Part shown: one piece after another, positions 1 to 9,648 of the stretch
How the letters are laid out: the number at the start of each line of letters is the position of its first letter
Numbering within the stretch: the first letter of the stretch is position 1
DNA from: a virus
Length of the DNA stretch: 49,940 nucleotides
Direction: 5' to 3' (one strand)
Virus record (IMG/VR): IMGVR_UViG_3300047550_005036
Location: 1 to 49,940 of that record
Notes under the pieces: generated by a model
What the model was told of the DNA's origin: nothing
The model's database searches: none
What the model saw: only the letters and a program-made list of their open reading frames with translations
Made by a program: the position numbers and the translations under genes

Positions 1-19
1 GTGTGACACTAAAAAAGGC

Positions 20-68
20 GGCACAAGGACACAAATCCTTTGCCGCCTTTATGCTTATAATGACTGCA
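20..68 (+). promoter_or_regulatory. Box/hairpin/-10 start cassette for the 84-248 gene
   Basis: GGCACAA box starts at 20, a perfect -10 TATAAT lies at 56-61, then six bases and an inferred start at A68 in AGTTCACAC. The box sits inside a strong hairpin (AAAGGCGGCA...TGCCGCCTTT, about 15 pairs with one bulge) that could also terminate transcription from upstream. No good -35 hexamer is visible. The leader to the ATG is 16 bases. Confidence 0.6.
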
Positions 69-83
69 GTTCACACAACTCTC

Positions 84-248
84 ATGGAACTGAACATCAA
101 CCGCACTGATTTCTCTGCTCTGGAGACCATTGCAACGGTTTTGAAGGTTTATAACAACAACTTTCCAAATCTTGATGAAGGTGAGAACGCTCTTTGGGCG
201 ATTGCTATGATTAAGCATGAGGTGGAGCAGACTGGTAGGACAGTTTGA
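84..248 (+). CDS. Small acidic hypothetical protein (54 aa)
   Basis: I do not recognise this protein. The start is placed at ATG 84 because it lies 16 bases after the inferred transcript start at A68; an in-frame ATG at 3 would translate through the upstream hairpin and promoter. The product starts MELNINRTDFSALET and is probably helical and slightly acidic, with no Cys pair, signal peptide or membrane segment. It is the first of a row of single-gene units, each behind its own promoter cassette, which suggests an early host-takeover type gene; that role is inference from context only. Confidence 0.55.
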   Translation: MELNINRTDFSALETIATVLKVYNNNFPNLDEGENALWAIAMIKHEVEQTGRTV

Positions 249-253
249 TCACT

Positions 254-302
254 GGCACAAGGGGTCTTGTGTTCTCATGAGATCCCTGATACATTTCATT
301 TG
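254..302 (+). promoter_or_regulatory. Box/hairpin/-10 start cassette for the 318-542 gene
   Basis: GGCACAA box at 254, hairpin 261-286 (10 pairs, 6-base loop), -35-like TTGTGT 267-272, 17-base spacer, -10-like TACATT 290-295, six bases, inferred start G302 in GTTCCTG. The hairpin differs from the copies at 563, 1072 and 1314 at several stem positions, yet every pair is kept, including an A-U to U-A swap. Confidence 0.6.
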
Positions 303-317
303 TTCCTGAGAACTCTC

Positions 318-542
318 ATGCTTTACGCAACCACTTCAAGTGTTCATGATTACTCTGGGCACATCAATCAAGATTCGTTGACAATCAATCTCAACAAATA
401 CTATTACGAAGTCACCGAAATCCAAGCAGATAGTGATGAACTTGTGAAGTGTTGTGGTATTCTGGGTAGAAAACTCCCCGACTGCCGAGTTTATACTTTT
501 CTTGGTAGCAATGCTCAAGAAATTGCAAAGAACTGGAAGTGA
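318..542 (+). CDS. Hypothetical protein (74 aa)
   Basis: Unrecognised small soluble protein. ATG 318 is chosen because it lies 16 bases after the inferred transcript start; the in-frame ATG at 267 lies inside the promoter hairpin. The product has paired cysteines (KCCGILGRKLPDC) in its middle, which could be structural, and a mixed strand/helix pattern. Its leader (TTCATTTGTTCCTGAGAA) is nearly identical to that of the 1129 gene. No operon partner: the stop is followed directly by the next start cassette. Confidence 0.6.
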   Translation: MLYATTSSVHDYSGHINQDSLTINLNKYYYEVTEIQADSDELVKCCGILGRKLPDCRVYTFLGSNAQEIAKNWK

Positions 543-551
543 CACTTTAGA

Positions 552-612
552 AACTGGCACAAGGGGTCTTGAGGTTCTTCAGGATCCCTGCCATACTTAC
601 ATCGTTCACCAC
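552..612 (+). repeat. Intergenic promoter-hairpin repeat, copy 1 (copies at 1062-1107 and 1303-1363)
   Basis: Bases 552-612 are identical to 1303-1363 over 61 bases, and share 44 bases with 1064-1107. The shared part contains the GGCACAA box, the 26-base hairpin and the -35/-10 elements. Such exact copies between unrelated small genes could act as sites for homologous gain or loss of the gene between them. Confidence 0.85.
556..604 (+). promoter_or_regulatory. Box/hairpin/sigma70-like start cassette for the 621-1058 gene
   Basis: Box 556, hairpin 563-588, -35 TTGAGG 569-574, 17-base spacer, -10 CATACT 592-597, six bases, inferred start G604 in GTTCACC. The -35 hexamer lies inside the hairpin stem and loop, so the element could work as a terminator for the upstream gene when transcribed and as a promoter in the DNA. 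Confidence 0.7.
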
Positions 613-620
613 CATTTCTC

Positions 621-1058
621 ATGTCCTACACTCAGTTTGTTTGCACTTCCAAGTGTCAGGTTGCTGATGATTTCAACCTGGAAGAGTATTTCAAATCTCT
701 TGCAGATTTCATTGGTAATCATGTCGATGATCTCAGTGAGAGTATCACATGGTTGGCAGACATGGAGTATGATGATGTGATCACGGAGTTTGAAAAGTAT
801 GTGTGGCAGAATGGGAATGAAGTTCTCATTAACTGTGACACTGAAGAGGATAATCATGACACTGAACTCTGGGATTGGTTGAGTGATCAAATCCGCCAAG
901 ATGCCATGATTTCTAAGTTCATGACTATCAATTCCACCACAATTGATTCTCGGGATGGTGTCGATCCTTACCAGGCATTTGTAATGAAGGATGGCACACA
1001 GATTGGTCCTTCTGAGATCTCCAACATTGTGGAGCAGTATGTAAAGATGTCCAGTTGA
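621..1058 (+). CDS. Acidic hypothetical protein (145 aa)
   Basis: Not recognised. The protein is strongly acidic, rich in Asp, Glu and Trp (EYDDVITEFEKYVWQ; DTELWDWLSDQI), mostly helical in appearance, with no signal or membrane segment. ATG 621 lies 17 bases after the inferred transcript start and no purine-rich ribosome site precedes it. Strongly acidic small phage proteins are sometimes DNA mimics or host-enzyme inhibitors, but nothing here proves that. It is a single-gene unit between two copies of the promoter-hairpin repeat. Confidence 0.7.
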   Translation: MSYTQFVCTSKCQVADDFNLEEYFKSLADFIGNHVDDLSESITWLADMEYDDVITEFEKYVWQNGNEVLINCDTEEDNHDTELWDWLSDQIRQDAMISKFMTINSTTIDSRDGVDPYQAFVMKDGTQIGPSEISNIVEQYVKMSS

Positions 1059-1061
1059 ACA

Positions 1062-1107
1062 AGTGGCACAAGGGGTCTTGAGGTTCTTCAGGATCCCTGC
1101 CATACTT
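1062..1107 (+). repeat. Intergenic promoter-hairpin repeat, copy 2
   Basis: Identical to copy 1 over the 44 bases from the box to just past the -10; the leader after it differs and instead matches the leader of the 318 gene. Confidence 0.85.
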
Positions 1108-1113
1108 CATTTG
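1065..1113 (+). promoter_or_regulatory. Box/hairpin/sigma70-like start cassette for the 1129-1293 gene
   Basis: Box 1065, hairpin 1072-1097, -35 TTGAGG 1078-1083, 17-base spacer, -10 CATACT 1101-1106, six bases, inferred start G1113 in GTTCCTG. Confidence 0.7.
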
Positions 1114-1128
1114 TTCCTGAGAAATCTC

Positions 1129-1293
1129 ATGAAATTCTCATTCAACACCAAATTCTTCTACATTGGTTGGGATCTTATGAATACCTACCACATGGAAGAA
1201 CAGTTTGGCATCTCATTTGGTAACTATTACATTGGTTACTATTATGGGGATGGATGGTGTGCTGGTTTTCTTGATGCCAACGGGTGTCTGTGA
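1129..1293 (+). CDS. Aromatic-rich hypothetical peptide (54 aa)
   Basis: Unrecognised. The peptide is very rich in Tyr, Phe and Gly (FGNYYIGYYYGDGW), with Cys near the end, and looks like a compact beta-rich fold or a surface-binding peptide. ATG 1129 is 16 bases after the inferred start; an in-frame ATG at 1063 would be upstream of it. A 7-bp hairpin (GGGTGTC/GACACCC, 1282-1298) covers the stop codon. Single-gene unit; no function inferred. Confidence 0.55.
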   Translation: MKFSFNTKFFYIGWDLMNTYHMEEQFGISFGNYYIGYYYGDGWCAGFLDANGCL

Positions 1294-1302
1294 CACCCTG
1301 AC

Positions 1303-1363
1303 AACTGGCACAAGGGGTCTTGAGGTTCTTCAGGATCCCTGCCATACTTACATCGTTCACCAC
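1303..1363 (+). repeat. Intergenic promoter-hairpin repeat, copy 3
   Basis: 61-base exact match to 552-612, including the leader GTTCACCAC; divergence begins right before the coding sequence. Confidence 0.85.
1307..1355 (+). promoter_or_regulatory. Box/hairpin/sigma70-like start cassette for the 1373-1795 gene
   Basis: Box 1307, hairpin 1314-1339, -35 TTGAGG 1320-1325, 17-base spacer, -10 CATACT 1343-1348, six bases, inferred start G1355 in GTTCACC. Confidence 0.7.
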
Positions 1364-1372
1364 TCAAACACC

Positions 1373-1795
1373 ATGGGAACTCGCTCACGCATCGGCATTG
1401 AACTTCCTGACGGTTCTGTGCTCTCTGCCTATCATCACTGGGATGGTTATCCTGAGTGGTTGGGTCGTATTCTGAACACTCACTACAACACTAAAGAGAA
1501 AGCAGAAGAACTGATTGATGGTGGCGACATGTCTTGCTGCTGGACTAAGGAGCGTTGGTCTAATGATTTGCTAGACCGTCATAGGGAAGAATACGGTCCT
1601 CAATACTACTCTCAGCGTGGAGAAGATTGCCCTCCTCGTCTTGATCCGAGTGTAGAAATCTATCTGGAATACGGTGAAGAGTATGCCTATCTTTACACTC
1701 TGGACGGTGAATGGATTTGCTGGAATCGCCATCAGTTTGATGATAACAAATCGCCCGAACTTGTAGAGATTCCTTCTGCGGCACTGGCAGTCTGA
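1373..1795 (+). CDS. Conserved phage hypothetical protein of the MGTRSRIGI type (140 aa)
   Basis: The opening MGTRSRIGIELPDGSV followed by a HWDGYPEWLGRIL stretch is a pattern I recall from a widespread family of phage proteins of unknown function. The rest has GGDMSCCW and an aromatic acidic end (EYGEEYAYLYTLDGEW). ATG 1373 is 18 bases after the inferred transcript start; the longer in-frame opening from 1205 runs through the previous gene and the hairpin, so it is rejected. Soluble, single-gene unit. Family membership is from memory of the motif, not a search. Confidence 0.75.
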   Translation: MGTRSRIGIELPDGSVLSAYHHWDGYPEWLGRILNTHYNTKEKAEELIDGGDMSCCWTKERWSNDLLDRHREEYGPQYYSQRGEDCPPRLDPSVEIYLEYGEEYAYLYTLDGEWICWNRHQFDDNKSPELVEIPSAALAV

Positions 1796-1800
1796 GAACT

Positions 1801-1849
1801 GGCACAAGGGGCACCCAGGATCGCCTGTGATGCCCCTATACTGAACAAG
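1801..1849 (+). promoter_or_regulatory. Box/hairpin/-10 start cassette for the 1869-3020 gene cluster
   Basis: Box at 1801, two-part hairpin (GGGGCA 1808-1813 with TGCCCC 1831-1836, and CAGG 1816-1819 with CCTG 1824-1827), -10 TATACT 1837-1842, six bases, inferred start G1849 in GTCAACC. No -35 consensus. It heads the longest run of closely packed genes in this region. Confidence 0.65.
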
Positions 1850-1868
1850 TCAACCAATCACACCAATC

Positions 1869-2003
1869 ATGGACTTTGACACTGATTTCTGGTCTGAGAT
1901 TCAAGATTCTTCATGTGAAATCTTCGACATTCCTGAAATGAGGGATGAGGATGATGATGAACTCACCTGGAACGCATTTCTGAACTCTAACTGGGACTTC
2001 TGA
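1869..2003 (+). CDS. Acidic peptide (44 aa), first gene of a coupled cluster
   Basis: Reads MDFDTDFWSEIQ...NSNWDF and ends TGA at 2003; the last base is also the A of the next ATG (TGATG). Very acidic (RDEDDDEL). Unrecognised. It begins 20 bases after the inferred transcript start. Its stop/start overlap with the 2003 gene and the ATGA overlap that follows support real, translationally coupled genes rather than chance frames. Confidence 0.6.
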   Translation: MDFDTDFWSEIQDSSCEIFDIPEMRDEDDDELTWNAFLNSNWDF

Positions 2004-2131
2004 TGACTCCTGATACCTACACTTTCGCTGGTGACTCTGTGACAGTTCTTGGACTGGTCGGGGTCATCTCCACTGGCATCATTCTGGTGCTATGCTTCAC
2101 TCGTTACTTCAACTCACCACTCCGCAAATGA
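2003..2131 (+). CDS. Small single-pass membrane protein (42 aa)
   Basis: Sequence starts MTPDTYTFAGDSV, then a hydrophobic segment of about 20 residues (VTVLGLVGVISTGIILVLCF, residues 13-32), then a basic tail FTRYFNSPLRK. This suggests one membrane span with the C-terminus inside by the positive-inside rule. It overlaps the previous stop by one base and the next start by four (ATGA), so it is likely co-translated. Function unknown; small phage membrane proteins may act in lysis, superinfection exclusion or host modulation, but none of these is shown. Confidence 0.6.
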   Translation: MTPDTYTFAGDSVTVLGLVGVISTGIILVLCFTRYFNSPLRK

Positions 2132-2331
2132 AGTTTCAAGTCACCGAAATCGAGTTTGATTTTGAGATGGAGGATGACGAGTATCCTTCAGATGATTACC
2201 AACATGCACTCACAGAGGAAACCATTGGTCAAATCTGGGATGCAGAGGATGAGGATGATCTTGTAGAAGAGATCACCTGTGCCACAGGATGGTGCATCAA
2301 ATCCATTGATTACCGTCACATTCTGAACTGA
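2128..2331 (+). CDS. Acidic hypothetical protein (67 aa)
   Basis: Start ATG 2128 overlaps the stop of the membrane-protein gene (ATGA), which decides it over an in-frame ATG at 2092. Highly acidic (FDFEMEDDEYPSDDY; DAEDEDDLVEEI) with a C-terminal CATGWCIKSIDY. The WCIKSIDY ending is typical of small mixed alpha/beta phage proteins. Not recognised. Part of the 1869-3020 cluster. Confidence 0.65.
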   Translation: MKFQVTEIEFDFEMEDDEYPSDDYQHALTEETIGQIWDAEDEDDLVEEITCATGWCIKSIDYRHILN

Positions 2332-2351
2332 TTATGTACCGCAACTGAATC

Positions 2352-2543
2352 ATGACTAACTCCAAAGAGCAATGGATCAAAGACATGGCGAATAAGATTG
2401 ACATTCTTTCTGTCCGCGAACAAATCCAAGAGGATTTGATTTGTCTTCTAGCAACACAATTTGATGATGAGGGGCAAATGGATGAAGTCCAAAGAATTGC
2501 CTGTGACATTGTAGTTTCCAACTTCACCAAACTCCTCAAATGA
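2352..2543 (+). CDS. Helical hypothetical protein (63 aa)
   Basis: Unrecognised. Entirely helix-like (EQWIKDMANKIDIL, VREQIQEDLICLLATQ), acidic to neutral. It lies 20 bases after the previous stop and its stop overlaps the next start (ATGA at 2540), so it belongs to the same transcript. No purine-rich ribosome site is obvious. Confidence 0.6.
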   Translation: MTNSKEQWIKDMANKIDILSVREQIQEDLICLLATQFDDEGQMDEVQRIACDIVVSNFTKLLK

Positions 2544-2800
2544 CTAAAACGACCATCACTCTAGAACAGTTCCACAATCTTCTGGCAGATTCCTATGCTG
2601 TAAGTGTCAATGATACCCTCTACTTTGTGGGTTATGATACAGACGACAATCCCTACATTTCAGACAATGATGGGCATGATTATGTTGACCTCTCCACTGT
2701 AGATGGTGACATTGAAGTTCACCCTAACTATGTGTTCTTTCATGTGAATGGTGAACCTCTTCACATGGTTTTTCTCAACATTAAACCGCTTAATTTCTGA
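2540..2800 (+). CDS. Acidic beta-rich hypothetical protein (86 aa)
   Basis: Begins MTKTTITLEQFHNLLADSYA and is then strand-rich with an Asp-rich loop (GYDTDDNPYISDNDGHDYVDL). The DxDxxPYxSDNDGHD stretch could bind a cation, but this is only appearance. Four-base overlap with the upstream gene indicates translational coupling. Ends four bases before the 2805 start. Confidence 0.65.
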   Translation: MTKTTITLEQFHNLLADSYAVSVNDTLYFVGYDTDDNPYISDNDGHDYVDLSTVDGDIEVHPNYVFFHVNGEPLHMVFLNIKPLNF

Positions 2801-2804
2801 ACTC

Positions 2805-3020
2805 ATGACTCTCACTCCCGATCAAATCAATCAACTGATTGAGAATTATGCTGAGCGATGTGTAGATGACATGGATACCAAATGCCTCATGCAATTTGTG
2901 TATGATGCTATCGTGGAGAATCTTCAACACATGGGTGATGAAGAAATCCTAGATCAAATCGCATGTGTTTATGATGAAGAAACACTGCAAGAAATGATTG
3001 AGAGTGTGACGGGTCAGTAA
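2805..3020 (+). CDS. Acidic helical hypothetical protein (71 aa)
   Basis: Opening MTLTPDQINQLIENYAERCVDD; ATG 2805 chosen because it directly follows the preceding stop, whereas the in-frame ATG at 2748 would overlap that gene by more than 50 bases. Helix-rich with alternating acidic and hydrophobic residues. Last gene of the 1869-3020 cluster; the next start cassette begins right after the stop. Confidence 0.65.
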   Translation: MTLTPDQINQLIENYAERCVDDMDTKCLMQFVYDAIVENLQHMGDEEILDQIACVYDEETLQEMIESVTGQ

Positions 3021-3022
3021 GT

Positions 3023-3070
3023 GGCACACAAGGGTTGACGCCACCGCCAACCCGTGCCATGATACATACA
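3023..3070 (+). promoter_or_regulatory. Box/-35/-10 start cassette with long leader for the KTSC gene
   Basis: Box GGCACA at 3023, -35 TTGACG 3035-3040, 17-base spacer, -10 CATGAT 3058-3063, inferred start A3070 in ATCAACC. The -35 lies in a hairpin GGGTTG...CAACCC. Unlike the other cassettes, the leader is about 120 bases. Confidence 0.65.
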
Positions 3071-3190
3071 TCAACCGGGAAAGTGAGCGCCCTTAAAGAC
3101 TGCCAGATTCGACGGAATCTGTTTATTAAACCCGCCGCAACAGGGGAGGTAGCGGCACCCCACCCAACCTTTACTTTCTGTTTTTTCATT
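3071..3190 (+). other. Structured 5' leader of the KTSC gene
   Basis: The roughly 120-base leader holds a perfect hairpin AGATTC-gacg-GAATCT (3105-3120) and a second pairing GCCGC (3134-3138) with GCGGC (3152-3156) enclosing a purine-rich GGGGAGGT. It ends in a pyrimidine-rich stretch before ATG 3191. It matches no riboswitch class I can recognise. Confidence 0.4.
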
Positions 3191-3403
3191 ATGTTCAAGT
3201 TCCAATCCAGCGCCATCGAAAACATCACCGATGTGCAAGATGAGCAAGTGACCATCACCTTTGTGGGTGGTCGTAACTACACCTACAAGGTTGTCGATCC
3301 TTCTACTTTTGTGAATGATCTGAACACCGTCATCGAAAAGGATGATTCTGTGGGTCGTTTCATCAACTCCGCTATTCGTAGCGAGCAACTGCTGTCGGTC
3401 TGA
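3191..3403 (+). CDS. KTSC-domain protein (70 aa)
   Basis: The protein is essentially one KTSC-type domain: a Ser-containing opening (FQSSAIENI), two strands (EQVTITFVGGRNYTYKVV), a helix and the FINSAIRS end, which matches the family pattern of a short beta hairpin followed by a GxxFNxxIR-like close. The biochemical role of KTSC domains is not firmly known; they occur in phage and bacterial single-domain proteins and next to nucleic-acid enzymes. ATG 3191 follows a long leader and fits the domain start; the in-frame ATG at 3035 would place the promoter in the coding sequence. A terminator follows at once. Confidence 0.75.
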   Translation: MFKFQSSAIENITDVQDEQVTITFVGGRNYTYKVVDPSTFVNDLNTVIEKDDSVGRFINSAIRSEQLLSV

Positions 3404-3411
3404 TAGCATCT

Positions 3412-3440
3412 AGAGGGAGATTCTTCTCCCTCTTTCATTC
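3412..3440 (+). terminator. Rho-independent terminator after the KTSC gene
   Basis: Nine-base perfect stem AGAGGGAGA/TCTCCCTCT (3412-3420 with 3425-3433), loop TTCT, then a T-rich tail. Confidence 0.75.
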
Positions 3441-3458
3441 TCTTTCTTGGAGTGATTC

Positions 3459-3605
3459 ATGACCAAAGAACTTCTGATTTCTCAACTTCGTCTAGGTAAA
3501 GATGGGCATGGCATCCTTTCGATTCTTGATGCACTGTGTAATGGGATGGACAGTGGTGAATCTAGTGAAGATAATGTCCCCACACTAGACGAGATTGAGT
3601 TCTAA
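3459..3605 (+). CDS. Hypothetical protein (48 aa)
   Basis: Reads MTKELLISQLRLGKDGHGILS, then DALCNGMDSGE and an acidic end. One of the few genes in this region with a recognisable ribosome site (TTGGAG, 8 bases before the ATG). Helical N-terminal half. I have a weak impression of similar short proteins starting MTKELL in cyanophages but cannot confirm it. The C-terminal codons contain TAGACGAG, a variant of the TCGACGAG repeat that follows. Confidence 0.6.
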   Translation: MTKELLISQLRLGKDGHGILSILDALCNGMDSGESSEDNVPTLDEIEF

Positions 3606-3607
3606 AA

Positions 3608-3694
3608 CTCGACGAGATGTGCCACTTCATCTAGTGGCACATCATTCTCGACGAGACCTGCATCATCAACTAGATTATACACATCTCGACGAGG
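3608..3694 (+). repeat. Operator-like locus 1: three TCGACGAG elements around a perfect hairpin
   Basis: TCGACGAG occurs at 3609, 3648 and 3686 (spacing 39 and 38), the last two as the inverted repeat TCTCGACGAG(A/G). Between the first two is a perfect 11-bp hairpin (GATGTGCCACT 3616-3626 with AGTGGCACATC 3633-3643). TCATCAACTAGATT at 3662-3675 recurs at the second locus at 7685-7698. The last element lies 7 bases ahead of ATG 3701, fitting an operator over the transcript start or leader. Confidence 0.6.
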
Positions 3695-3700
3695 TTCAAC

Positions 3701-3889
3701 ATGAACACCGCTTTCGTCACACCAATCTCAAAAAAGGCAAAGAATCGTCTTGCCAATCTCATGGATGGCAACGATCAGTGTATTGTTGAACAAAACACTG
3801 GGAGGAATCTATTTCTCACATCCATGAATCGCAAATACCATTTTTGGGTTTCACTTGACAACGATGCCCACTGGATAGTAGACTTCTGA
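3701..3889 (+). CDS. Hypothetical protein (62 aa), probably conserved in cyanophages
   Basis: Sequence opens MNTAFVTPISKKAKNRLANL and ends NRKYHFWVSLDNDAHWIVDF; this compact alpha/beta layout with an aromatic C-terminus looks like a real folded protein, and similar endings are familiar from cyanophage small proteins (memory only). It lies directly behind the TCTCGACGAG repeat locus, so it may be controlled through those sites. No membrane segment. Confidence 0.65.
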   Translation: MNTAFVTPISKKAKNRLANLMDGNDQCIVEQNTGRNLFLTSMNRKYHFWVSLDNDAHWIVDF

Positions 3890-4160
3890 TACTGGAGGAA
3901 GGGGTTTGCCTCCCACTATAAGATAAAGTTACCCAGCGCGAAAGAGAACAGATAATCATAGCGTATTTGGAGTGGGTGATTCAAGGGATCGGGGTGGTGT
4001 CCGATCCTTTTTTCTTTTTTTTTATTATTATTATTTTTTGGCAGGTTCCGTGGCGATGTATTGTTCAGTAGGGATACCCTTCCCCCGTTGGTGCTTGTTG
4101 TTCTCATAAGATACAGAAGAACAACCCACCAAACCCCGATGCTGTGCCAGTTTGCTAGGT
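3890..4160 (+). other. Non-coding stretch with hairpins and a strong terminator
   Basis: No credible gene in 3890-4245. It holds a weak hairpin GGAGG/CCTCC (3894-3913), the terminator at 3986-4023, a TTATTATTATTA run, and a 7-bp hairpin TGTGCCA/TGGCACA (4143-4166) that overlaps the next cassette box. Because the terminator lies about 97 bases past the last stop codon, the segment 3890-3985 could be a long 3' end or a small RNA. Confidence 0.5.
3986..4023 (+). terminator. Strong Rho-independent terminator
   Basis: Perfect stem GGATCGG (3986-3992) / CCGATCC (4001-4007), 8-base loop, followed by a run of 16 bases that is all T except one C. Confidence 0.9.
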
Positions 4161-4210
4161 GGCACAATGGTGGTTGATCGGGTCGGTTCTGGGGCGGCAT
4201 ACTTCCACCA
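4161..4210 (+). promoter_or_regulatory. Box/-35/-10 start cassette for the 4246-4728 gene
   Basis: Box GGCACAA 4161, -35 TTGATC 4174-4179, 18-base spacer, -10 CATACT 4198-4203, six bases, inferred start A4210. The leader is 36 bases, longer than in most sister cassettes. Confidence 0.6.
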
Positions 4211-4245
4211 ACGGCGCACCACTGACGCCGACTCGCTTTCTCACC

Positions 4246-4728
4246 ATGGAAACCGTCACCATCACCAACAACGGCGCCACCATTCAGATGACCGGCACCT
4301 ATCCTGAGATCGCCAACTTCCTGATCGGTTTGAGTCAGGCAACGGTACAACAGTCTGCGCCAGTTGTTAACACCGAACCCGCAGAACTTGTACCCTTTAA
4401 GGATGTCGTTCTGGCGGAACTTACTCCTCATCTTGGTGCTCAACTTTCCAAGAAAGTTGTAGACCTTCTGGAGTATTGCCGCAAAGGTTATACCGACTTC
4501 GGACCCTTTGTTGCTGCTTACCGTTGGGTCGGGAATGACATTCAGAAGCGCCAACTTCTGAAGACTGTGAGTGCAATCTATCGCTACAAGTTCACTCCCA
4601 AAGAGTACACAAACTCCTATCAGTATTCTCTGCGGAGTGAGATCAAGTATGCTACAATCTGCCCCCATTGTGGTAGTATTGCCAGCACACTTGTGGACCG
4701 TCTGAAGTCTGAAGGTCTGTGGAAGTGA
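4246..4728 (+). CDS. Hypothetical protein with one CxxC pair (160 aa)
   Basis: Not recognised. N-terminus METVTITNNGATIQMTG is strand-like and followed by a helical segment (YPEIANFLIGLSQ), a variable Ala/Pro/Glu linker, then a helical domain with KVVDLLEYCRKGYTDFGPFVAAYRW, and a C-terminal ICPHCG pair that could be half of a zinc site or a redox motif. The start follows the inferred promoter and avoids an in-frame ATG at 4159 that precedes the transcript start. The next start cassette follows within 15 bases of the stop. Confidence 0.7.
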   Translation: METVTITNNGATIQMTGTYPEIANFLIGLSQATVQQSAPVVNTEPAELVPFKDVVLAELTPHLGAQLSKKVVDLLEYCRKGYTDFGPFVAAYRWVGNDIQKRQLLKTVSAIYRYKFTPKEYTNSYQYSLRSEIKYATICPHCGSIASTLVDRLKSEGLWK

Positions 4729-4741
4729 CAGTCTGACAACT

Positions 4742-4791
4742 GGCACAAGGGGACTCGCAAGGGTCCCCACCCTACCCTTAGGATGACCGCA
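4742..4791 (+). promoter_or_regulatory. Box/hairpin/-10 start cassette for the 4810-5481 gene
   Basis: Box 4742, hairpin GGGGAC 4749-4754 / GTCCCC 4763-4768, -10 TAGGAT 4779-4784, six bases, inferred start A4791 in AGTTCACC. The hairpin has a different sequence from those at 563-1339 but the same position. Confidence 0.65.
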
Positions 4792-4809
4792 GTTCACCAC
4801 ACCACTCCG

Positions 4810-5481
4810 ATGAACACCGCTCTCACCCTGATCTCCAGCAACGCCAAGACCGGACCCATTCCCACCAGCACCAGCGACCGTGCAACCTGCCCCACAACCT
4901 GCCCATTCTATGACAAAGGTTGCTACGCTAAGAGTGGCCCTCAGGCACTACACTGGCGCAAGGTTTCTAACGCTGAGCGCGGCGTAGATTGGCAGGAGTT
5001 CATTGCACAGATTCGTAAGATTCAGCGCGGGCAACTCTGGCGCCATAATGTGTCTGGCGATCTGCAGCACAACAACGGTAACATTGATTACCTGAAACTG
5101 CGTCAGTTGATTGATGCAAACAAGGGTCGCAAAGGTTTCACCTATTCGCATCACATTCTGAACGAGCATAACATCATCGCTCTGCAGAATGCGAACGGTT
5201 TAGGTTTCACCGTCAACGCATCTTGTGAATCGGTTGATGAAGCCGACCGTGTGATGACTCAGTATCAGATTCCCGCCGTTGCAGTTGTTCACTCTGAAGA
5301 AACCCGCCGATTCTTCACTACAACCAGTGGTCGCAAGGTGATCACTTGCCCCGCAACAATCCATGAGAATGTAACCTGCAGCACTTGCGGTTTGTGTCAG
5401 AAAGCGGATCGTGAGTTTGTGATAGCGTTCCCCGCACATGGCACCGCCAAAAAGACAGTCAATGAGATTGTGACAGTCTGA
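4810..5481 (+). CDS. Cys-rich Gp88/DUF7227-like phage protein (223 aa)
   Basis: Residues 1-45 contain SNAKTGPIP, then CPTTCPFYDKGCYAKSGP (Cys 27, 31, 38), and near residue 190 comes a second cluster CPATIHENVTCSTCGLC. This layout, with an N-terminal CPxxCPxxxxGCYAxxG and a C-terminal Cys cluster, matches what I know of the Gp88 and DUF7227 phage families, whose function is not established. The cysteines could ligate a metal or iron-sulfur centre (inference). ATG 4810 lies 19 bases after the inferred transcript start; the in-frame ATG at 4783 is upstream of it. Single-gene unit between two cassettes. Confidence 0.75.
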   Translation: MNTALTLISSNAKTGPIPTSTSDRATCPTTCPFYDKGCYAKSGPQALHWRKVSNAERGVDWQEFIAQIRKIQRGQLWRHNVSGDLQHNNGNIDYLKLRQLIDANKGRKGFTYSHHILNEHNIIALQNANGLGFTVNASCESVDEADRVMTQYQIPAVAVVHSEETRRFFTTTSGRKVITCPATIHENVTCSTCGLCQKADREFVIAFPAHGTAKKTVNEIVTV

Positions 5482-5486
5482 CAGGT

Positions 5487-5545
5487 GGCACAAGGGGGGA
5501 CTGAGATCCCCCCGAACCTGCCGCCGATGCTGTAGGATGAACAAG
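5487..5545 (+). promoter_or_regulatory. Box/hairpin/-10 start cassette for the 5563-5805 gene
   Basis: Box 5487, perfect 7-bp hairpin GGGGGGA/TCCCCCC (5494-5513), -10 TAGGAT 5533-5538, six bases, inferred start G5545 in GTCAACC. Here the box lies 46 rather than 36 bases before the -10, a shift of about one helical turn. Confidence 0.6.
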
Positions 5546-5562
5546 TCAACCACACCGCTCCC

Positions 5563-5805
5563 ATGATTCCTGATCCTTCCCAGGCAACCGCCATCCTGAA
5601 CCGTTGCGACTGCCACACCGTCGCCGCTGCTACTCTCCCGGTTTGGGAGCGTATTGTCAACGATCTCTCAGTTCCTCCAGACCTTTATGATAAAGTCGAG
5701 GATCTGATTGCGATTCTGGAATACATCGAAGGTTGGCAACCTTCGGATGCTGACATAATCGCCGCGAACAGTTGCGGAACAGCATGGCACGATGGTTGCC
5801 GCTGA
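5563..5805 (+). CDS. Hypothetical protein (80 aa)
   Basis: Unrecognised. Helix-rich (ATLPVWERIVNDL, YDKVEDLIAILEYIE) with Cys pairs at both ends (RCDCHTV and SCGTAWHDGC), which could form a metal site or disulfide. It starts 18 bases past its inferred transcript start and is followed closely by a Rho-independent terminator, so it looks like a complete one-gene unit. Confidence 0.7.
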   Translation: MIPDPSQATAILNRCDCHTVAAATLPVWERIVNDLSVPPDLYDKVEDLIAILEYIEGWQPSDADIIAANSCGTAWHDGCR

Positions 5806-5817
5806 TTGATTATACTT

Positions 5818-5843
5818 AAGGGGGGCAACTTCGCCCCTTTTTT
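5818..5843 (+). terminator. Rho-independent terminator
   Basis: Stem AAGGGGGGC / GCCCCTTTT with loop AACTTC, and a run of six T. Same general design as the terminators at 6689, 8656 and 9416. Confidence 0.85.
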
Positions 5844-5847
5844 GTAT

Positions 5848-5868
5848 ACTTTTTTTGTTAAAAAAAGT
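5848..5868. terminator. Perfect A/T hairpin (possible bidirectional terminator)
   Basis: ACTTTTTTT / AAAAAAAGT, nine perfect pairs with a three-base loop, directly after the preceding terminator. The T run can serve transcription from the left, and the A run becomes a T run for transcription from the right. Confidence 0.4.
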
Positions 5869-5988
5869 TTGCAGGGTCGGTGTCGATCATTGTCGTCTAC
5901 AGTGCTACCCCGCACCTCTGCTGATTGTCCCCATAGTCTACAGGCACCCCAGACCCATCCGACCGCCACAGTGGACAGTTCCACAAGT

Positions 5989-6036
5989 GGCACAACCTGG
6001 TGGCACAGCGTCCCGTTTGCCCCCATACTGGTATCA
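5989..6036 (+). promoter_or_regulatory. Box/-10 start cassette for the winged-helix gene
   Basis: GGCACA box at 5989 and again at 6002, -10 CATACT 6024-6029, six bases, inferred start A6036 in AGTTCACC. No strong hairpin here and no -35 consensus. The leader matches the 4810 gene's leader base for base up to the ATG. Confidence 0.65.
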
Positions 6037-6054
6037 GTTCACCACACCACTCCG

Positions 6055-6309
6055 ATGAACTTCTCCGCTCTCACCCGCATCGCCGTCCGCTCCTCCCTGA
6101 TTCAGAACGGTCCCCAGACCTGCAGCGACCTTGTGCGCGGCATGGGTCTGGACCCGAAGCGCCACAAGGGCACCATTCACGCCGTGATGGTCGATCTGGA
6201 GCGTGATGGCGTTCTGAGCGCCACCCGTGCTAAGAACGGCAAGCGTGATCTGTGGCGCATCGCCGTGATCCGCAAGCGGGACCGCCTGATCGCCGCCCTG
6301 ATCGGTTGA
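6055..6309 (+). CDS. Putative winged-helix DNA-binding protein (84 aa)
   Basis: After MNFSALTRIAV comes a helix-turn-helix-like stretch (SLIQNGPQTCSDLVRGMGL, then KGTIHAVMVDLERDGVL) and a basic beta-wing (SATRAKNGKRDLWRIAV). The arrangement of helix, LxRDGxL and then a basic wing is typical of small MarR-like or RepA-like winged helices. It could be the regulator of the shared promoter cassettes or of the TCGACGAG sites, but this is inference. ATG 6055 is 19 bases after the inferred start. The reading frame is unusually G+C-rich compared with late genes. A perfect 8-bp hairpin follows the stop. Confidence 0.65.
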   Translation: MNFSALTRIAVRSSLIQNGPQTCSDLVRGMGLDPKRHKGTIHAVMVDLERDGVLSATRAKNGKRDLWRIAVIRKRDRLIAALIG

Positions 6310-6316
6310 ACCCTAC

Positions 6317-6340
6317 AGGGGCGCTCTGCGCCCCTTCCTA
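6317..6340 (+). terminator. Hairpin between 6055 and 6343 genes
   Basis: Perfect stem AGGGGCGC / GCGCCCCT (6317-6324 with 6328-6335), three-base loop. Only a weak T tail follows, so partial termination or mRNA protection is possible. Confidence 0.6.
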
Positions 6341-6342
6341 CC

Positions 6343-6510
6343 ATGCTCAACGCTCTCACCCGTGCCCGCCATCCTTCCTACCACCGCGCCACCATGCTGC
6401 GCCTTCTGATCGCTGCTCTGCTGCTCTACTGGTTCTGGGAACCGATCCGCCCGATCCGCACTGTGACGGGTGAGGCACTGTCCACCGCCGCCCACATCAT
6501 TCGCCGCTGA
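6343..6510 (+). CDS. Small membrane protein (55 aa)
   Basis: Opens MLNALTRARHPSYHRA (basic), then a hydrophobic segment MLRLLIAALLLYWFW (residues 18-32), then EPIRPIRTVTGEAL and a helix to the end. One membrane span or a membrane anchor is likely. A second in-frame ATG at residue 18 begins exactly at the hydrophobic stretch, so two forms, as in dual-start phage holins, are conceivable; this is speculation. It sits 8 bases after the hairpin following the winged-helix gene, with which it probably shares a transcript. Confidence 0.55.
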   Translation: MLNALTRARHPSYHRATMLRLLIAALLLYWFWEPIRPIRTVTGEALSTAAHIIRR

Positions 6511-6515
6511 CCCTG

Positions 6516-6528
6516 TAGACTTCTATCA
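6516..6528 (+). promoter_or_regulatory. -10 and start element for the 6547-6681 gene
   Basis: -10 TAGACT 6516-6521, six bases, inferred start A6528 in AGTTCACC, ATG 19 bases on. The upstream box and hairpin of the other cassettes are missing because this element directly abuts the preceding gene. Confidence 0.5.
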
Positions 6529-6546
6529 GTTCACCACCACTGAACC

Positions 6547-6681
6547 ATGACCTACGCTTTCACTGACGATCTGCAGATTGAAGAGTACATCCCCACTGAG
6601 GATGATTGGGCATCCTATTATGAGGACGATCAGGCACTGGAAGCATACTCTCTGGAGTGTGCATTCGGTCCCGAAGAGTGA
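6547..6681 (+). CDS. Very acidic peptide (44 aa)
   Basis: Reads MTYAFTDDLQIEEYIPTEDD, then WASYYEDDQALEAYS and ends FGPEE. Highly acidic and aromatic with no basic residues. The composition resembles small phage inhibitors that bind basic host protein surfaces, but no homology is recognised. The start lies 19 bases past an AGTTCACC element, and a strong terminator follows 8 bases after the stop, so it reads as a real short gene. Confidence 0.6.
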   Translation: MTYAFTDDLQIEEYIPTEDDWASYYEDDQALEAYSLECAFGPEE

Positions 6682-6688
6682 TACAAAC

Positions 6689-6714
6689 AGGGGGGCAATT
6701 GCCTCCCTTTTTTT
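6689..6714 (+). terminator. Rho-independent terminator
   Basis: GGGGGGCAATTGCCTCCC followed by seven T. The arms pair with one G-T; a member of the C/A-loop terminator family of this region. Confidence 0.85.
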
Positions 6715-6816
6715 ATACCTAACTCCACCAAAAAAAGGTTCTACCTCCAGGCTAGCACGTCCCCCGGCCACCTGGTCAAGCCCCTGACCCATAAGCATTC
6801 CTGATCGTTCAACCCC

Positions 6817-6852
6817 TTGACTCTGGTGCCGTTTGCGCCCATACTGATCTCA
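6817..6852 (+). promoter_or_regulatory. Sigma70-like promoter for the 6873-7127 gene
   Basis: -35 TTGACT 6817-6822, exact 17-base spacer, -10 CATACT 6840-6845, six bases, inferred start A6852 in AGTTCACACC. This member has a good -35 but lacks the GGCACAA box and the hairpin, which supports the box or hairpin substituting for the -35 elsewhere. Confidence 0.75.
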
Positions 6853-6872
6853 GTTCACACCACACCACTCCG

Positions 6873-7127
6873 ATGAACTTCTCCGCTCTGACCTTCTCTG
6901 ATCACGGTGTCATCAAAGGTGCCACACATGCCCACCACATCTTTGAGAATGGTTGGGAGATTTCTGTAGTTGCGGGACCGAAGAATTGCGGTCTTCATGG
7001 TAACATCGACCACGATACCTTTGAGGTTGCTATCATCCGCCCCAATGGTAACATGTTGAAGGATGTTATCAACTGGCAGACTCCAGTTCAGATCACCACC
7101 ATGATGCGCCTGATTGCGATGCTGTGA
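6873..7127 (+). CDS. Hypothetical protein (84 aa)
   Basis: Starts MNFSALTFSDHGVIKG, sharing the first seven residues with the winged-helix protein at 6055, then GWEISVVAGPKNCG and DTFEVAIIRPNG, a strand-rich core, and a helical end. The shared opening codons continue the shared leader and point to duplication of a whole start module. ATG 6873 is 21 bases after the inferred start. Function unknown. Confidence 0.7.
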   Translation: MNFSALTFSDHGVIKGATHAHHIFENGWEISVVAGPKNCGLHGNIDHDTFEVAIIRPNGNMLKDVINWQTPVQITTMMRLIAML

Positions 7128-7140
7128 CAATCCGTTAAGT

Positions 7141-7190
7141 GTCACAAGGGGATCGGCAACGGTCCCCACCGATCCCTTAGACTTCTCTCA
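7141..7190 (+). promoter_or_regulatory. Box/alternative-hairpin/-10 start cassette for the 7210-7332 gene
   Basis: Box variant GTCACAA at 7141, -10 TAGACT 7178-7183, six bases, inferred start A7190 in AGTTCACACC. Two mutually exclusive hairpins are possible: GGGGA 7148-7152 with TCCCC 7163-7167, or GGGATCGG 7149-7156 with CCGATCCC 7169-7176. Confidence 0.6.
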
Positions 7191-7209
7191 GTTCACACCA
7201 CACCACTCT

Positions 7210-7332
7210 ATGACTCTGAACATCGCCTGCAGCATCGCCACCCGTCAGATCGTATGGGTCCGCAATGGTGCTAAGATTCAGTCTGGTTCCGCTCATGTAT
7301 GGGCGGCACTGGGTCGCAAAGGGCGCCTCTGA
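7210..7332 (+). CDS. Basic peptide (40 aa)
   Basis: Reads MTLNIACSIATRQIVWVRNG and ends WAALGRKGRL; basic and beta-like, unrecognised. Start 20 bases after the inferred transcript start. The in-frame upstream ATG at 7114 lies in the preceding gene and is rejected. The stop is followed by a TACAAT -10-like element for the next gene. Confidence 0.5.
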   Translation: MTLNIACSIATRQIVWVRNGAKIQSGSAHVWAALGRKGRL

Positions 7333-7337
7333 TCTGA

Positions 7338-7387
7338 TACAATACGGGAGGGTCCGGACGGACTCCTCCCCCCCCCCAATTATCATC
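7338..7387 (+). promoter_or_regulatory. -10-like element, hairpin and ten-C run ahead of the 7388 gene
   Basis: TACAAT at 7338-7343, then a hairpin between GGGAGG near 7346 and CCTCCC near 7365, then a run of ten C (7368-7377), 10 bases from the ATG. No -35 is evident. The C run is unusual for this genome. Confidence 0.4.
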
Positions 7388-7576
7388 ATGCAAACTATTC
7401 TCACCCCCCAAGAAATCGCCCAGTTGGTTACTACTGGAATGGTTGAATTGACCGATGATCTTATCATTCGCATGGAGCAATTCTGCGATCTTGTTGATGA
7501 GAAACTGTCCGAATCTTATGAGGATTCTGATTGGTACAATGATCCGAATTGCGTGATGTCAAAGCATCATTATTGA
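7388..7576 (+). CDS. Acidic hypothetical protein (62 aa)
   Basis: Opens MQTILTPQEIAQLVTTGMVE, helix-rich, acidic, ending NCVMSKHHY. Unrecognised. ATG 7388 is preferred because the in-frame ATG at 7265 runs through the preceding gene and the C run. It lies just upstream of the three TCTCGACGAGA tandem repeats. Confidence 0.6.
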   Translation: MQTILTPQEIAQLVTTGMVELTDDLIIRMEQFCDLVDEKLSESYEDSDWYNDPNCVMSKHHY

Positions 7577-7591
7577 TCTAGTCTAGATTAC

Positions 7592-7681
7592 ATCTCGACG
7601 AGATCGCACATCATTCATACAATCTCGACGAGATCGCACATCATTCATACAATCTCGACGAGATCGCACATCATTCAATAC
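7592..7681 (+). repeat. Operator-like locus 2: three tandem 30-bp repeats with ATCTCGACGAGAT
   Basis: The inverted repeat ATCTCGACGAGAT starts at 7592, 7622 and 7652, a strict 30-bp period, with identical CGCACATCATTCA in each unit. Upstream lies the palindrome ATCTAGTCTAGAT (7577-7589) and downstream TCATCAACTAGATT (7685-7698), the same 14 bases found at locus 1 (3662-3675). The period is about three helical turns, placing all inverted repeats on one face of the DNA. Both loci end shortly before a gene start. Confidence 0.75.
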
Positions 7682-7700
7682 ACATTCATCAACTAGATTC

Positions 7701-7865
7701 ATGCACAATAATCAACAACAAATCAATTCAATTAGTTTCACAATTAAATACCAAACTCCATACAATTCTTGTGAATGGAGAACACAATCATTCACATCAT
7801 TGGAGGAAGCACAAAGAATGGTAACATTCTACAGGTCTTGTGGAAGTCCTGCAGAGTTAGTATAA
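7701..7865 (+). CDS. Hypothetical protein (54 aa)
   Basis: Reads MHNNQQQINSISFTIKYQTP and ends MVTFYRSCGSPAELV. The pattern of a strand, EWRTQSFTSLEEAQRMV helix, and SCGSPAEL end looks like a small folded protein and resembles cyanophage small proteins I have seen (memory only). The frame starts right behind the TCTCGACGAGA tandem repeats, suggesting regulation through them. Its last 24 coding bases are part of the outer left arm of the large inverted repeat. Confidence 0.65.
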   Translation: MHNNQQQINSISFTIKYQTPYNSCEWRTQSFTSLEEAQRMVTFYRSCGSPAELV

Positions 7866-8025
7866 AGAATAGAATGAAGAATAAAGAATGAAAGTATAAA
7901 GAACTAACTCAGGATTGAATGTAATTTATTGTCAGTGGTGTGGTTTATTCTTTACATTCAGTCCTGTCTTAGTTCTTTATACTTTACACTGGTTGAGTTC
8001 TTTATACAAACTCTGCCAGGATTCC
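7842..8025. repeat. Large nested inverted repeat (about 184 bp)
   Basis: Inner arms 7891-7924 and 7952-7985 are 34 bases each, differing at three positions (one would be a G-T pair), around a 27-base centre. Outer arms 7842-7869 and 7998-8025 are 28 bases, matching except for one substitution and two compensating one-base indels. The outer left arm includes the end of the 7701 gene. Possible roles: a transcript barrier, a cruciform or replication site, or a remnant of inverted duplication. Confidence 0.8.
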
Positions 8026-8071
8026 CCTCTCCTCCCGCCCTCCAGCGTAGGTATGGGTGCCCTGTGGTTCT

Positions 8072-8162
8072 GTATCGGTTGCTACAGTTTGGCGGATTCG
8101 ACCCATAAGCGTTGCTGATAAGATGAGTTTGCCGTTTGGTATCGGTTGCTACCGTTTGGGGG
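8072..8162 (+). repeat. Imperfect 24-base direct repeat
   Basis: Copies 8072-8095 and 8139-8162 share GTATCGGTTGCTAC, then GTTTGG and GG, with two mismatches. The 67-base period lies in non-coding DNA. Confidence 0.65.
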
Positions 8163-8320
8163 TTGCGGGATCGGATGCTGGCGGTTACAGTGAGCGGAGC
8201 GAACCTTGAAAACCGAATAGCAGGATCGGGCGGTGCCGAAGGCATCGCGGGCGATGGGTCGGGCGGGTTCTACCGTCGCGCCGATTCTGCTGTTTCATAA
8301 CTTAAGTTTCGCCATTTAGT

Positions 8321-8331
8321 TACACTTTCAC
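8321..8331 (+). promoter_or_regulatory. TACACTTTCAC start motif of the 8338 gene
   Basis: TACACTTTCAC ends 6 bases before ATG 8338. The same motif precedes ATG 8711 and ATG 8934. If TACACT is a -10, the transcript would start within about 5 bases of the ATG, nearly leaderless. Confidence 0.4.
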
Positions 8332-8337
8332 AGTCCC

Positions 8338-8646
8338 ATGACTATCCTTGTCGGACAAGTTGAAACTCTCATGCCTGAACTTTTGCAGGCAATGAGTGAT
8401 GCAGACGCTGCTAAAAAGCGCGTTGATGATCTCAAAGCGCAAATGATTGCGCTGATTGAAGAACCTCAAACGGTCAAAACTTGCTGGGGTTCGGTTACGC
8501 TCAACAACGGAAGGCGCACTGTCAAAGTAACTGACAAGGCGCTAAATGCTCAGATTACACTACTTAAAGAGAATGGAATCTCCGAAGGTAAGTGTCAAGA
8601 ATCGGTGAGCGATCCGTTCATCACGGTCCGCAAGTTGGACCGCTGA
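8338..8646 (+). CDS. Coiled-coil hypothetical protein (102 aa)
   Basis: N-terminal half is helical and likely coiled coil (residues 8-42, with SDADAAKKRVDDLKAQMIAL), followed by a strand-rich part (WGSVTLNNGRRTVKVTD) and a second helix, ending ITVRKLDR. The layout of coiled coil then small beta domain recalls phage Gp157-like proteins, but I see no decisive motif. Preceded by TACACTTTCAC and followed by a perfect terminator, so it is its own unit. Confidence 0.7.
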   Translation: MTILVGQVETLMPELLQAMSDADAAKKRVDDLKAQMIALIEEPQTVKTCWGSVTLNNGRRTVKVTDKALNAQITLLKENGISEGKCQESVSDPFITVRKLDR

Positions 8647-8655
8647 GTTACACTT

Positions 8656-8682
8656 AGGGAGGCACAATCGCCTCCCTATTCT
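8656..8682 (+). terminator. Rho-independent terminator
   Basis: Perfect 8-bp stem AGGGAGGC / GCCTCCCT (8656-8663 with 8670-8677), loop ACAATC, then ATTCTTT. Confidence 0.8.
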
Positions 8683-8696
8683 TTCCACTTTCACCC

Positions 8697-8710
8697 TACA
8701 CTTTCACGCC
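8697..8710 (+). promoter_or_regulatory. TACACTTTCACGCC start motif of the 8711 gene
   Basis: Directly abuts ATG 8711; identical to the 14 bases before ATG 8934. A degenerate tandem copy (CCACTTTCACC) lies just upstream. Confidence 0.4.
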
Positions 8711-8896
8711 ATGATGACACTTTCTCTCTGCGATGAGCGTATAGTTTATGAAGCAATCTTCCGCCATGTTGAACACTTAGCGGAACAGAATTGGGGCAGT
8801 TCCGATTCTATTCTGGCAGCAAAAGTTGCCGCCGATTGCTTCCCTAAACTCGGGTATCCTGTGCCCCATTGGATCGCTGTTCTGGCACAATCCTGA
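8711..8896 (+). CDS. Hypothetical protein (61 aa)
   Basis: Reads MMTLSLCDERIVYEAIFRHV, then helices up to VPHWIAVLAQS. Helical, soluble, unrecognised. Starts with a tandem ATGATG; either Met could be used. Abuts the TACACTTTCACGCC motif, with no Shine-Dalgarno. Confidence 0.6.
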   Translation: MMTLSLCDERIVYEAIFRHVEHLAEQNWGSSDSILAAKVAADCFPKLGYPVPHWIAVLAQS

Positions 8897-8905
8897 TCAG
8901 TTAGT

Positions 8906-8933
8906 TACACTTTCACCCCTACACTTTCACGCC
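8906..8933 (+). promoter_or_regulatory. Tandem TACACTTTCAC motifs before a 14-codon open frame
   Basis: TACACTTTCACCCC at 8906 and TACACTTTCACGCC at 8920, a 14-base period, then ATG 8934. Confidence 0.45.
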
Positions 8934-8978
8934 ATGGGGAGACAATCCTCCCCCTTTCTTTTCACAAACCACACCTAA
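8934..8978 (+). other. Possible leader peptide or gene remnant (14 codons)
   Basis: ATG 8934 follows exactly the same 14-base motif as ATG 8711 but opens only 14 codons (MGRQSSPFLFTNHT). The frame runs through the terminator hairpin at 8936-8953. It may be a regulatory short open frame for the 8989 gene, or the scar of a lost gene. Confidence 0.3.
8936..8960 (+). terminator. Rho-independent terminator
   Basis: GGGGAG / CTCCCC (8936-8941 with 8948-8953), loop ACAATC as in the terminator at 8656, then a T-rich tail. Confidence 0.7.
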
Positions 8979-8988
8979 GGTAAGCATC

Positions 8989-9408
8989 ATGCGCCATCCC
9001 ATCATCCGCCACAACGCCCGCCCCGCCTATTCTTTCGCTGGCATCGTTAACGCAATCGAGGAAGCACAGAATCGGGGACTGAAACGCATCACGATGCGTT
9101 TCGCAGACTTTATCGTCAAACCCTCCAAGTATCAGGGCAAGATGTATGTTTTCTCCCACGATAAAGAGATCAATCAGTGGGGAACTCTCTCCAACATTTA
9201 TCTGGGTTGGATCACTGCAACTGAGACCAATCTGGGTGAGGTTGCACTCATTCAGCGTGTGCAATCCGTCGCCGCTGATCCTTACGCCGCTGCTAAACTC
9301 TATGGGCAGAAGACAGGGAACTGCTCATGTTGCGGTCGTGAGCTAACCAATGCCCTTTCAATCGAACTGGGGATTGGTCCTATCTGCAGGGAGAAGTTCG
9401 GACTCTAA
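8989..9408 (+). CDS. DUF6011-type zinc-binding protein (139 aa)
   Basis: The C-terminus (residues 108-139) has GNCSCCGRELTNALS and then GIGPICREKFGL, the CxxCGRxLxxxxSxxxGxGPxCxxK pattern of DUF6011, a small probable zinc-binding domain common in phage proteins. The first 100 residues form an alpha/beta region (YSFAGIVNAIEEAQ; ITMRFADFIVKP; WGTLSNIYLGWI). Such proteins are thought to bind nucleic acid, but this is not shown. A fair ribosome site (AAGGTAAG) lies 6 bases before the ATG. It is the last gene of the G+C-rich region. Confidence 0.75.
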   Translation: MRHPIIRHNARPAYSFAGIVNAIEEAQNRGLKRITMRFADFIVKPSKYQGKMYVFSHDKEINQWGTLSNIYLGWITATETNLGEVALIQRVQSVAADPYAAAKLYGQKTGNCSCCGRELTNALSIELGIGPICREKFGL

Positions 9409-9415
9409 GGTATAC

Positions 9416-9443
9416 CGGGGGAGGCGCAATCCTCCCCCCTTTC
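9416..9443 (+). terminator. Rho-independent terminator after the DUF6011 gene
   Basis: GGGGGAGG / CCTCCCCC (9417-9424 with 9431-9438), loop CGCAAT, then a T-rich stretch. Confidence 0.75.
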
Positions 9444-9445
9444 TA

Positions 9446-9509
9446 TTCGTTCGTGATCGACAGTTAGGTATACTCTGCCGCCTCATTCGTTCGTTCGTGT
9501 TTGACAGTT
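9446..9509 (+). repeat. Direct repeat TTCGTTCGTG...GACAGTT
   Basis: TTCGTTCGTGATCGACAGTT (9446-9465) recurs as TTCGTTCGTGTTTGACAGTT at about 9490-9509. The second copy carries TTGACA (9501-9506), and a TATATC lies 20 bases after it, too far for a standard promoter; TATACT at 9468-9473 follows the first copy. Confidence 0.6.
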
Positions 9510-9539
9510 GTTGTGCGGTGCGGCGGTATATCTAGCGGA

Positions 9540-9648
9540 TCCATGGTCGGATATAAAAACCCAACACTACCCTAACCTACAAAGTGTTACCCAAGGGCAC
9601 TAAAAATATAAAAATTCATATATAAAATTAAAGTTTATATACACTCAG
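9540..9648 (+). other. Junction from G+C-rich to A+T-rich DNA
   Basis: Base composition changes abruptly between the G+C-rich sequence ending near 9540 and the A+T-rich stretch from about 9600 on. Contains an AACACT/AGTGTT pairing (9563-9588) and an A+T-rich run directly before ATG 9649. No tRNA or integrase is visible at the junction. Confidence 0.6.

Follow-up and report, generated by a model that had tools for sequence, protein, structure and literature searches.

A palindrome and -10 cassette repeated before small genes of T4-like cyanophages

What starts transcription of the small genes in the first 8 kb of the virus record IMGVR_UViG_3300047550_005036? This 49,940-bp record (the window) comes from a freshwater T4-like cyanophage; for its first 8 kb the closest annotated relative is S-SRM01 (Kyanoviridae), from a Singapore reservoir. 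A series of small plus-strand genes, mostly without assigned function, lies here 5' of large virion genes, and nearly every one is preceded by the same type of cassette (Table 1). An earlier note on this DNA had described the cassette as a GGCACAA box about 36 bases ahead of a -10 hexamer, followed by RGTTCACC and a short leader, and had proposed a promoter class in which the box replaces the -35. All of its box and -10 coordinates were correct, and the box lies 35-37 bases before the -10 in every cassette listed there except that at 5487 (46). The interpretation as a whole is partly supported; it did not include the hairpin, the overlap with stop codons, the cassette at 3618, or the palindrome itself.

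An imperfect palindrome of 24 bp, with the consensus TGTGNCASTTNNNNAASTGNCACA, was found to have the GGCACAA box as its right arm; it extends 18 bp upstream of the box. The motif was built from sites picked on the right arm only, in 33 IMG/VR contigs, S-SRM01, and the window. About 17 bp upstream in these sites a left arm emerged, TGTGACA(G/C)T, with up to 1.75 bits per column; of the two arms the right is the better conserved. Five exact matches to TGTGNCA-N10-TGNCACA were observed in the window, vs 0.00 in 100 dinucleotide shuffles. GGCACAA itself occurs 13 times on the plus strand of the window and never on the minus strand; ten of these copies belong to listed cassettes, and no cassette surrounds the other three (8661, 8884, and 40315). 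Variant boxes are present at 3023 (GGCACAC) and 7141 (GTCACAA). The cassette at 3618, absent from the earlier list, has a perfect palindrome and a counterpart in S-SRM01 at 88175. The consensus columns fit neither the NtcA nor the Pho-box pattern (GTA-N8-TAC and CTTA-N7-CTTA; PMC3037559).

The cassette is real and widespread in T4-like cyanophages. Palindrome and -10 recur together in S-SRM01, Syn9, S-PM2, P-SSM2, P-TIM40, P-HM2, Bellamy, DSL-LC03, and the 33 IMG/VR contigs. A search for the palindrome in related cyanophage genomes was performed with up to three mismatches and the reversed pattern as control; in nine Kyanoviridae it gave 73 forward matches vs 4 for the control, with 3-17 per genome (forward/reversed 17/0 in S-SRM01, 13/0 in P-SSM2, and 12/0 in S-PM2). 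The proposal of a class of phage promoters with an upstream element at a fixed position is supported: in T4-like cyanophages generally, the element recurs 5' of genes at constant spacing and much more often than chance would allow. No forward match at three mismatches or fewer was detected in T4, Ma-LMM01, or P-SSP7, and T4 had one reverse match. The absence from Ma-LMM01 is consistent with the paper on that phage, in which only sigma70-like promoters were reported. A scan of viral contigs with TGTGACA-N10-TGGCACA was set aside, since many matches are expected by chance. The orientation of the cassettes matches that of the downstream gene, and the minus-strand gene block of P-HM2 has minus-oriented cassettes. 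In the same phage (GU075905, L417) the palindrome at 39292-39315 lies between divergent genes and is flanked on each side by a -10 at 36 bp; judging from this arrangement it is a probable bidirectional promoter. The cassettes of P-TIM40 cluster at 48.9-55 kb, and in both Syn9 and P-TIM40 the motif is located 5' of clustered small genes.

The distance from the box to the start of the -10 was 34-37 bp in freshwater and marine phages alike. Counts of TA...T hexamers by distance from the box peaked at 34-37, with 59 at 35 and about five at most other positions; in most cassettes of phages other than that of the window the -10 lay at 34-36 bp. The hexamer itself (TANNNT) was strongly conserved. The wider spacing at 5487, read in the earlier note as one additional helical turn, fits that rule: it is echoed by 45-46 bp in two relatives (L030 and L028), as expected if a bound protein must hold its helical face. 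Statistics on the -35 and the hairpin were obtained for 187 freshwater cassettes and 70 others (the marine set). Counted from the start of the -10, a purine was present at +12 in 98% of freshwater cassettes and a T at +13 in 77%; these two positions of RGTTCACC are conserved and its remainder is variable. The ATG is mostly 10-29 nt 3' of the predicted transcription start. Relative to that start the palindrome is centred about 54 bp upstream and spans about -66 to -43, with the box at about -48 to -42.

Exactly 17 bp from the -10, a TTG was present in 32% of the freshwater and about 10% of the other cassettes, vs about 1% at most neighbouring offsets. Judged by this enrichment, the box is 5' of a degenerate -35 and not in its stead. 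The view that it replaces the -35 is thus correct only in part; for half of a palindrome at -66 to -43, a role as a simple -35 substitute is not supported. The statement that most cassettes lack a good -35 was also too strong: at 17-18 bp from the -10, TTGTGT follows the box at 254, TTGAGG those at 556, 1065, and 1307, TTGACG that at 3023, and TTGATC that at 4161. As previously noted, the canonical promoter at 6817 (TTGACT-17-CATACT) has no palindrome. Given the spread of the cassette, its fixed spacing, the conserved start context, the distance to the ATG, and the orientation, a promoter role is the only simple reading.

When the stretch between the box and the -10 was folded as RNA, z<-2 was obtained for 44% of freshwater cassettes and for 26% of the others; some of these hairpins carry a T tract and resemble true terminators. 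An upstream open reading frame could be detected for 150 freshwater cassettes, and in 110 of them its stop codon is located 5-16 nt before the box. The palindrome overlaps the coding end of the preceding gene because this stop codon falls inside it. Many of the upstream proteins (window, L009-L041) end in V-T-V/P/A/L, read from GTG ACA GTN TGA through the left arm, since the operator encodes the stop.

We consider it quite probable that these are operator-terminator-promoter cassettes in which a dimeric regulator on the palindrome assists the host sigma70 polymerase at small, hypervariable, probably early genes. The regulator would occupy TGTGNCASTTNNNNAASTGNCACA, centred near -54, and would help the host sigma70-type RNA polymerase at a good -10 (about -12 to -7) where the -35 is weak or absent. 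Transcription would start at the purine located about 12 nt 3' of the first base of the -10, and the leader would be short, in most cases 10-29 nt. The GC hairpin that many cassettes have between operator and -10 may end or cap the transcript of the preceding gene, whose stop codon is in most cases inside the operator. Activation is preferred over repression because the helical position of the operator is fixed and outside the core promoter. Several results weigh against this proposal. Left-arm strength and -35 quality were not anticorrelated (Spearman 0.09, P=0.25), and some cassettes have near-canonical -35s, so that the operator may be dispensable and only modulate the promoter. No recognisable DNA-binding domain or transcription factor was found in a Pfam scan of nine conserved Kyanoviridae proteins, drawn from those absent in T4 and Ma-LMM01, and no host regulon was evident in 201 Cyanobiaceae genomes.

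A repressor or shut-off operator would also be symmetric, as is typical for repressors: sigma70 polymerase would fire immediately and the regulator would silence the promoter later. Early promoters have to function when no phage protein has yet been made, an early activator is not known, and the -35 elements of some cassettes are acceptable. Many others are poor, however, and a centre near -54, beyond the -10/-35 core and in fixed helical phase (34-37 and 45-46 bp), fits contact with polymerase better than a steric block; repression is therefore distinctly unlikely. It is very improbable that the GGCACAA box works alone as a -35 substitute for an alternative or phage-modified sigma factor. Although it is the most conserved arm and keeps a fixed spacing to the -10, at about -48 to -42 it is beyond the reach of sigma region 4 at -35, the TTG at 17 bp is enriched independently, and the left arm about 17 bp further upstream is conserved as well. 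The inverted repeats might instead act mainly as RNA, terminating upstream mRNAs or stabilising their 3' ends, with an incidental -10. Hairpin enrichment, the T tracts of some copies, and the location right after stop codons speak for this, but about half of the freshwater and most of the marine cassettes keep palindrome and spacing without a significant hairpin, and the arms are usually mismatched as RNA (GTGACA/TGGCAC), which leaves such a role extremely improbable.

The activating regulator could also be a host protein exploited by the phages, the cassette mechanism being otherwise the same. A host protein would account for immediate early activity, and exact palindromes in bacterial genomes are disproportionately from cyanobacteria and Acidobacteria, those inspected being in unrelated contexts. 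The 201 Cyanobiaceae genomes, however, gave 46 sites vs 23 for the reversed control (by our own count about 0.1/Mb vs about 24/Mb in phages at the same stringency), and the host sites inspected had no common gene context; we regard a host regulator as unlikely. Six exact palindrome copies, several of them near gene starts (L171, L180, L188, L200, L216, and L219), were observed in one Pyrinomonadaceae metagenome-assembled genome, and at two Nostocales loci (L172 and L210) an exact copy is close to purH. The acidobacterial and Nostocales copies are possibly bound by a bacterial regulator that is unrelated but recognises the same sequence.

Among known systems, T4 middle promoters (MotA box and AsiA) share with the cassette a sigma70 -10, an activator-type upstream box, and a weak -35. 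The MotA box, however, has its centre at -30 and is not a palindrome, in contrast to the operator considered here; MotA and AsiA, both found in T4 as positive control, are not encoded in the nine Kyanoviridae. Class I/II cyanobacterial activator promoters of the NtcA or CRP type likewise have a dimer operator 5' of a sigma70 -10. The CRP site is TGTGA-N6-TCACA; half-site sequence and spacing differ from those of the cassette, for which no host regulon was found in the Cyanobiaceae genomes. In 2016 Doron and co-workers reportedly described a new element that controls the early genes of Syn9 and P-TIM40 and is conserved in T4-like cyanophages. The cassette of palindrome, 35 bp, and -10 is present in the genomes of both phages, and it is likely that element; the view that no described cyanophage promoter resembles it is not supported. 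To the Syn9/P-TIM40 element the freshwater cassettes add hairpins in many cases, near-identity between copies of one genome, and systematic stop-codon overlap. The exact palindrome with its spacing, the freshwater use, the stop-codon overlap, the hairpin, and an association with gene indels are added here.

The promoter early stem-loops (PeSLs) of T4-like phages, attributed to Arbiol in 2010 and Comeau in 2014, are said in citing papers to combine a stem-loop and an early promoter between small hypervariable genes. As far as these accounts go, the cassettes resemble them in having a stem-loop with an early-type promoter between genes, and gene indels at near-identical copies; they differ in the additional upstream palindrome and in a hairpin that is not universal. 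PeSLs of S-PM2 have been considered too sparse to matter (PMC4503421). We found 14 palindrome cassettes in that genome, and the stem loop listed at 11369-11391 in the same paper lies within one of them (11347).

Gene content also differs between contigs at some cassettes. The window gene between cassettes 2 and 3 (ATG 318) is missing from L016 and L040, and that between cassettes 4 and 5 (1129-1293) from L016, L040, and L030; the breakpoints of these single-gene indels fall within near-identical cassette sequence. Fifteen upstream genes change their downstream neighbour between contigs, with the switch at the cassette, although matching was on short C-termini and a few groupings are possibly due to chance. 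Downstream neighbours differed in 73% of cassette pairs, in 44% of long non-cassette gaps, and in 64% of short ones; the pairs are non-independent, and this wider count is only suggestive of turnover at cassettes. We tentatively propose a cyanophage-wide regulator, distinct from MotA/AsiA and without a visible host regulon, that would bind the palindrome, together with near-identical cassettes of fused operator, terminator, and promoter that might serve as recombination points for single-gene swaps, a counterpart of PeSLs. The cassette bears on early-gene control without MotA and AsiA in phages that rank among the most abundant. The operator is precisely defined (24 bp, 35-36 bp to the -10) and is a direct bait for finding the regulator, operator and spacing allow the probable early gene set to be predicted in any cyanophage genome, and the link between promoter cassettes and fast gene turnover is testable.

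Table 1. Cassettes and the palindrome-free promoter in the window (coordinates of the window).
Feature	Span	Strand	Palindrome	-10	ATG	Other elements
Cassette 1	2..83	+	2-25	TATAAT 56-61	84	box 20; terminator-like hairpin ~14-50
Cassette 2	236..317	+	236-259	TACATT 290-295	318	hairpin; TTGTGT at 17 bp
Cassette 3	538..620	+	538-561	CATACT 592-597	621	hairpin 555-593; TTGAGG at 17 bp
Cassette 4	1047..1128	+	1047-1070	CATACT 1101-1106	1129	hairpin; TTGAGG
Cassette 5	1289..1372	+	1289-1312 (TGTGACA N10 TGGCACA)	CATACT 1343-1348	1373	hairpin
Cassette 6	1783..1868	+	1783-1806	TATACT 1837-1842	1869	GGGGCA..TGCCCC hairpin
Cassette 7	3005..3190	+	3005-3028	CATGAT 3058-3063	3191	hairpin; TTGACG at 17 bp
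Cassette 8	3618..3700	+	3618-3641 (TGTGCCACTTCATCTAGTGGCACA)	TAGATT 3671-3676	3701	
Cassette 9	4143..4245	+	4143-4166 (TGTGCCA N10 TGGCACA)	CATACT 4198-4203	4246	TTGATC at 18 bp
Cassette 10	4724..4809	+	4724-4747	TAGGAT 4779-4784	4810	GGGGAC..GTCCCC hairpin
Cassette 11	5469..5562	+	5469-5492	TAGGAT 5533-5538	5563	strong hairpin; spacing 46
Cassette 12	5971..6054	+	5971-5994	CATACT 6024-6029	6055	second box 6002
Palindrome-free canonical promoter	6817..6872	+		CATACT 6840-6845	6873	TTGACT 6817-6822; 17 bp
Cassette 13	7123..7209	+	7123-7146 (perfect arms, TGTGACA N10 TGTCACA)	TAGACT 7178-7183	7210	hairpin

Cassettes 3, 4, and 5 have a box-hairpin-minus-10 core in common, and the gene that follows cassette 5 belongs to the T4-GC 66 family. 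The leader of cassette 7 is long and structured in appearance: after some cassettes a longer leader has a short stem followed by an AAAGAC-like motif (e.g. GGGAAAGTGAGCGCCCTTAAAGAC), at 3064-3190 in the window and similarly in L010 (258-), L018 (12041-), L027 (2709), and L029 (5392). It is possibly a structured RNA, without an Rfam match; an Rfam search of window positions 1-12000 gave two sub-threshold, chance-like matches and nothing else. The leader of cassette 9 (4201-4245) is conserved. Its sequence, AACGGCGCACCACTGACGCCG, in which a GGCG/CGCC hairpin is possible, follows the cassette of one gene family and was also observed at L011 6555, L030 3719, L034 4230, L039 3584, and 88.7 kb in S-SRM01. 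Near-tandem copies of another palindrome, TCTCGACGAGA(T), at 3601-3690 and 7580-7690 form a repeat family of their own, separate from the cassette. A long inverted repeat is present at 7890-7985 (GTATAAAGAACTAACTCAGGATTGAATG ... CATTCAGTCCTGTCTTAGTTCTTTATAC); its weak match to an Rfam miRNA is surely due to chance. Finally, a conserved copy of the cassette palindrome stands beside ATATAATGTTAGCGTTATATAACAT, which is not a standard promoter, at L010 3666-, L014 138, L015 645, L019 5313-, L025 7785, and L034 563.

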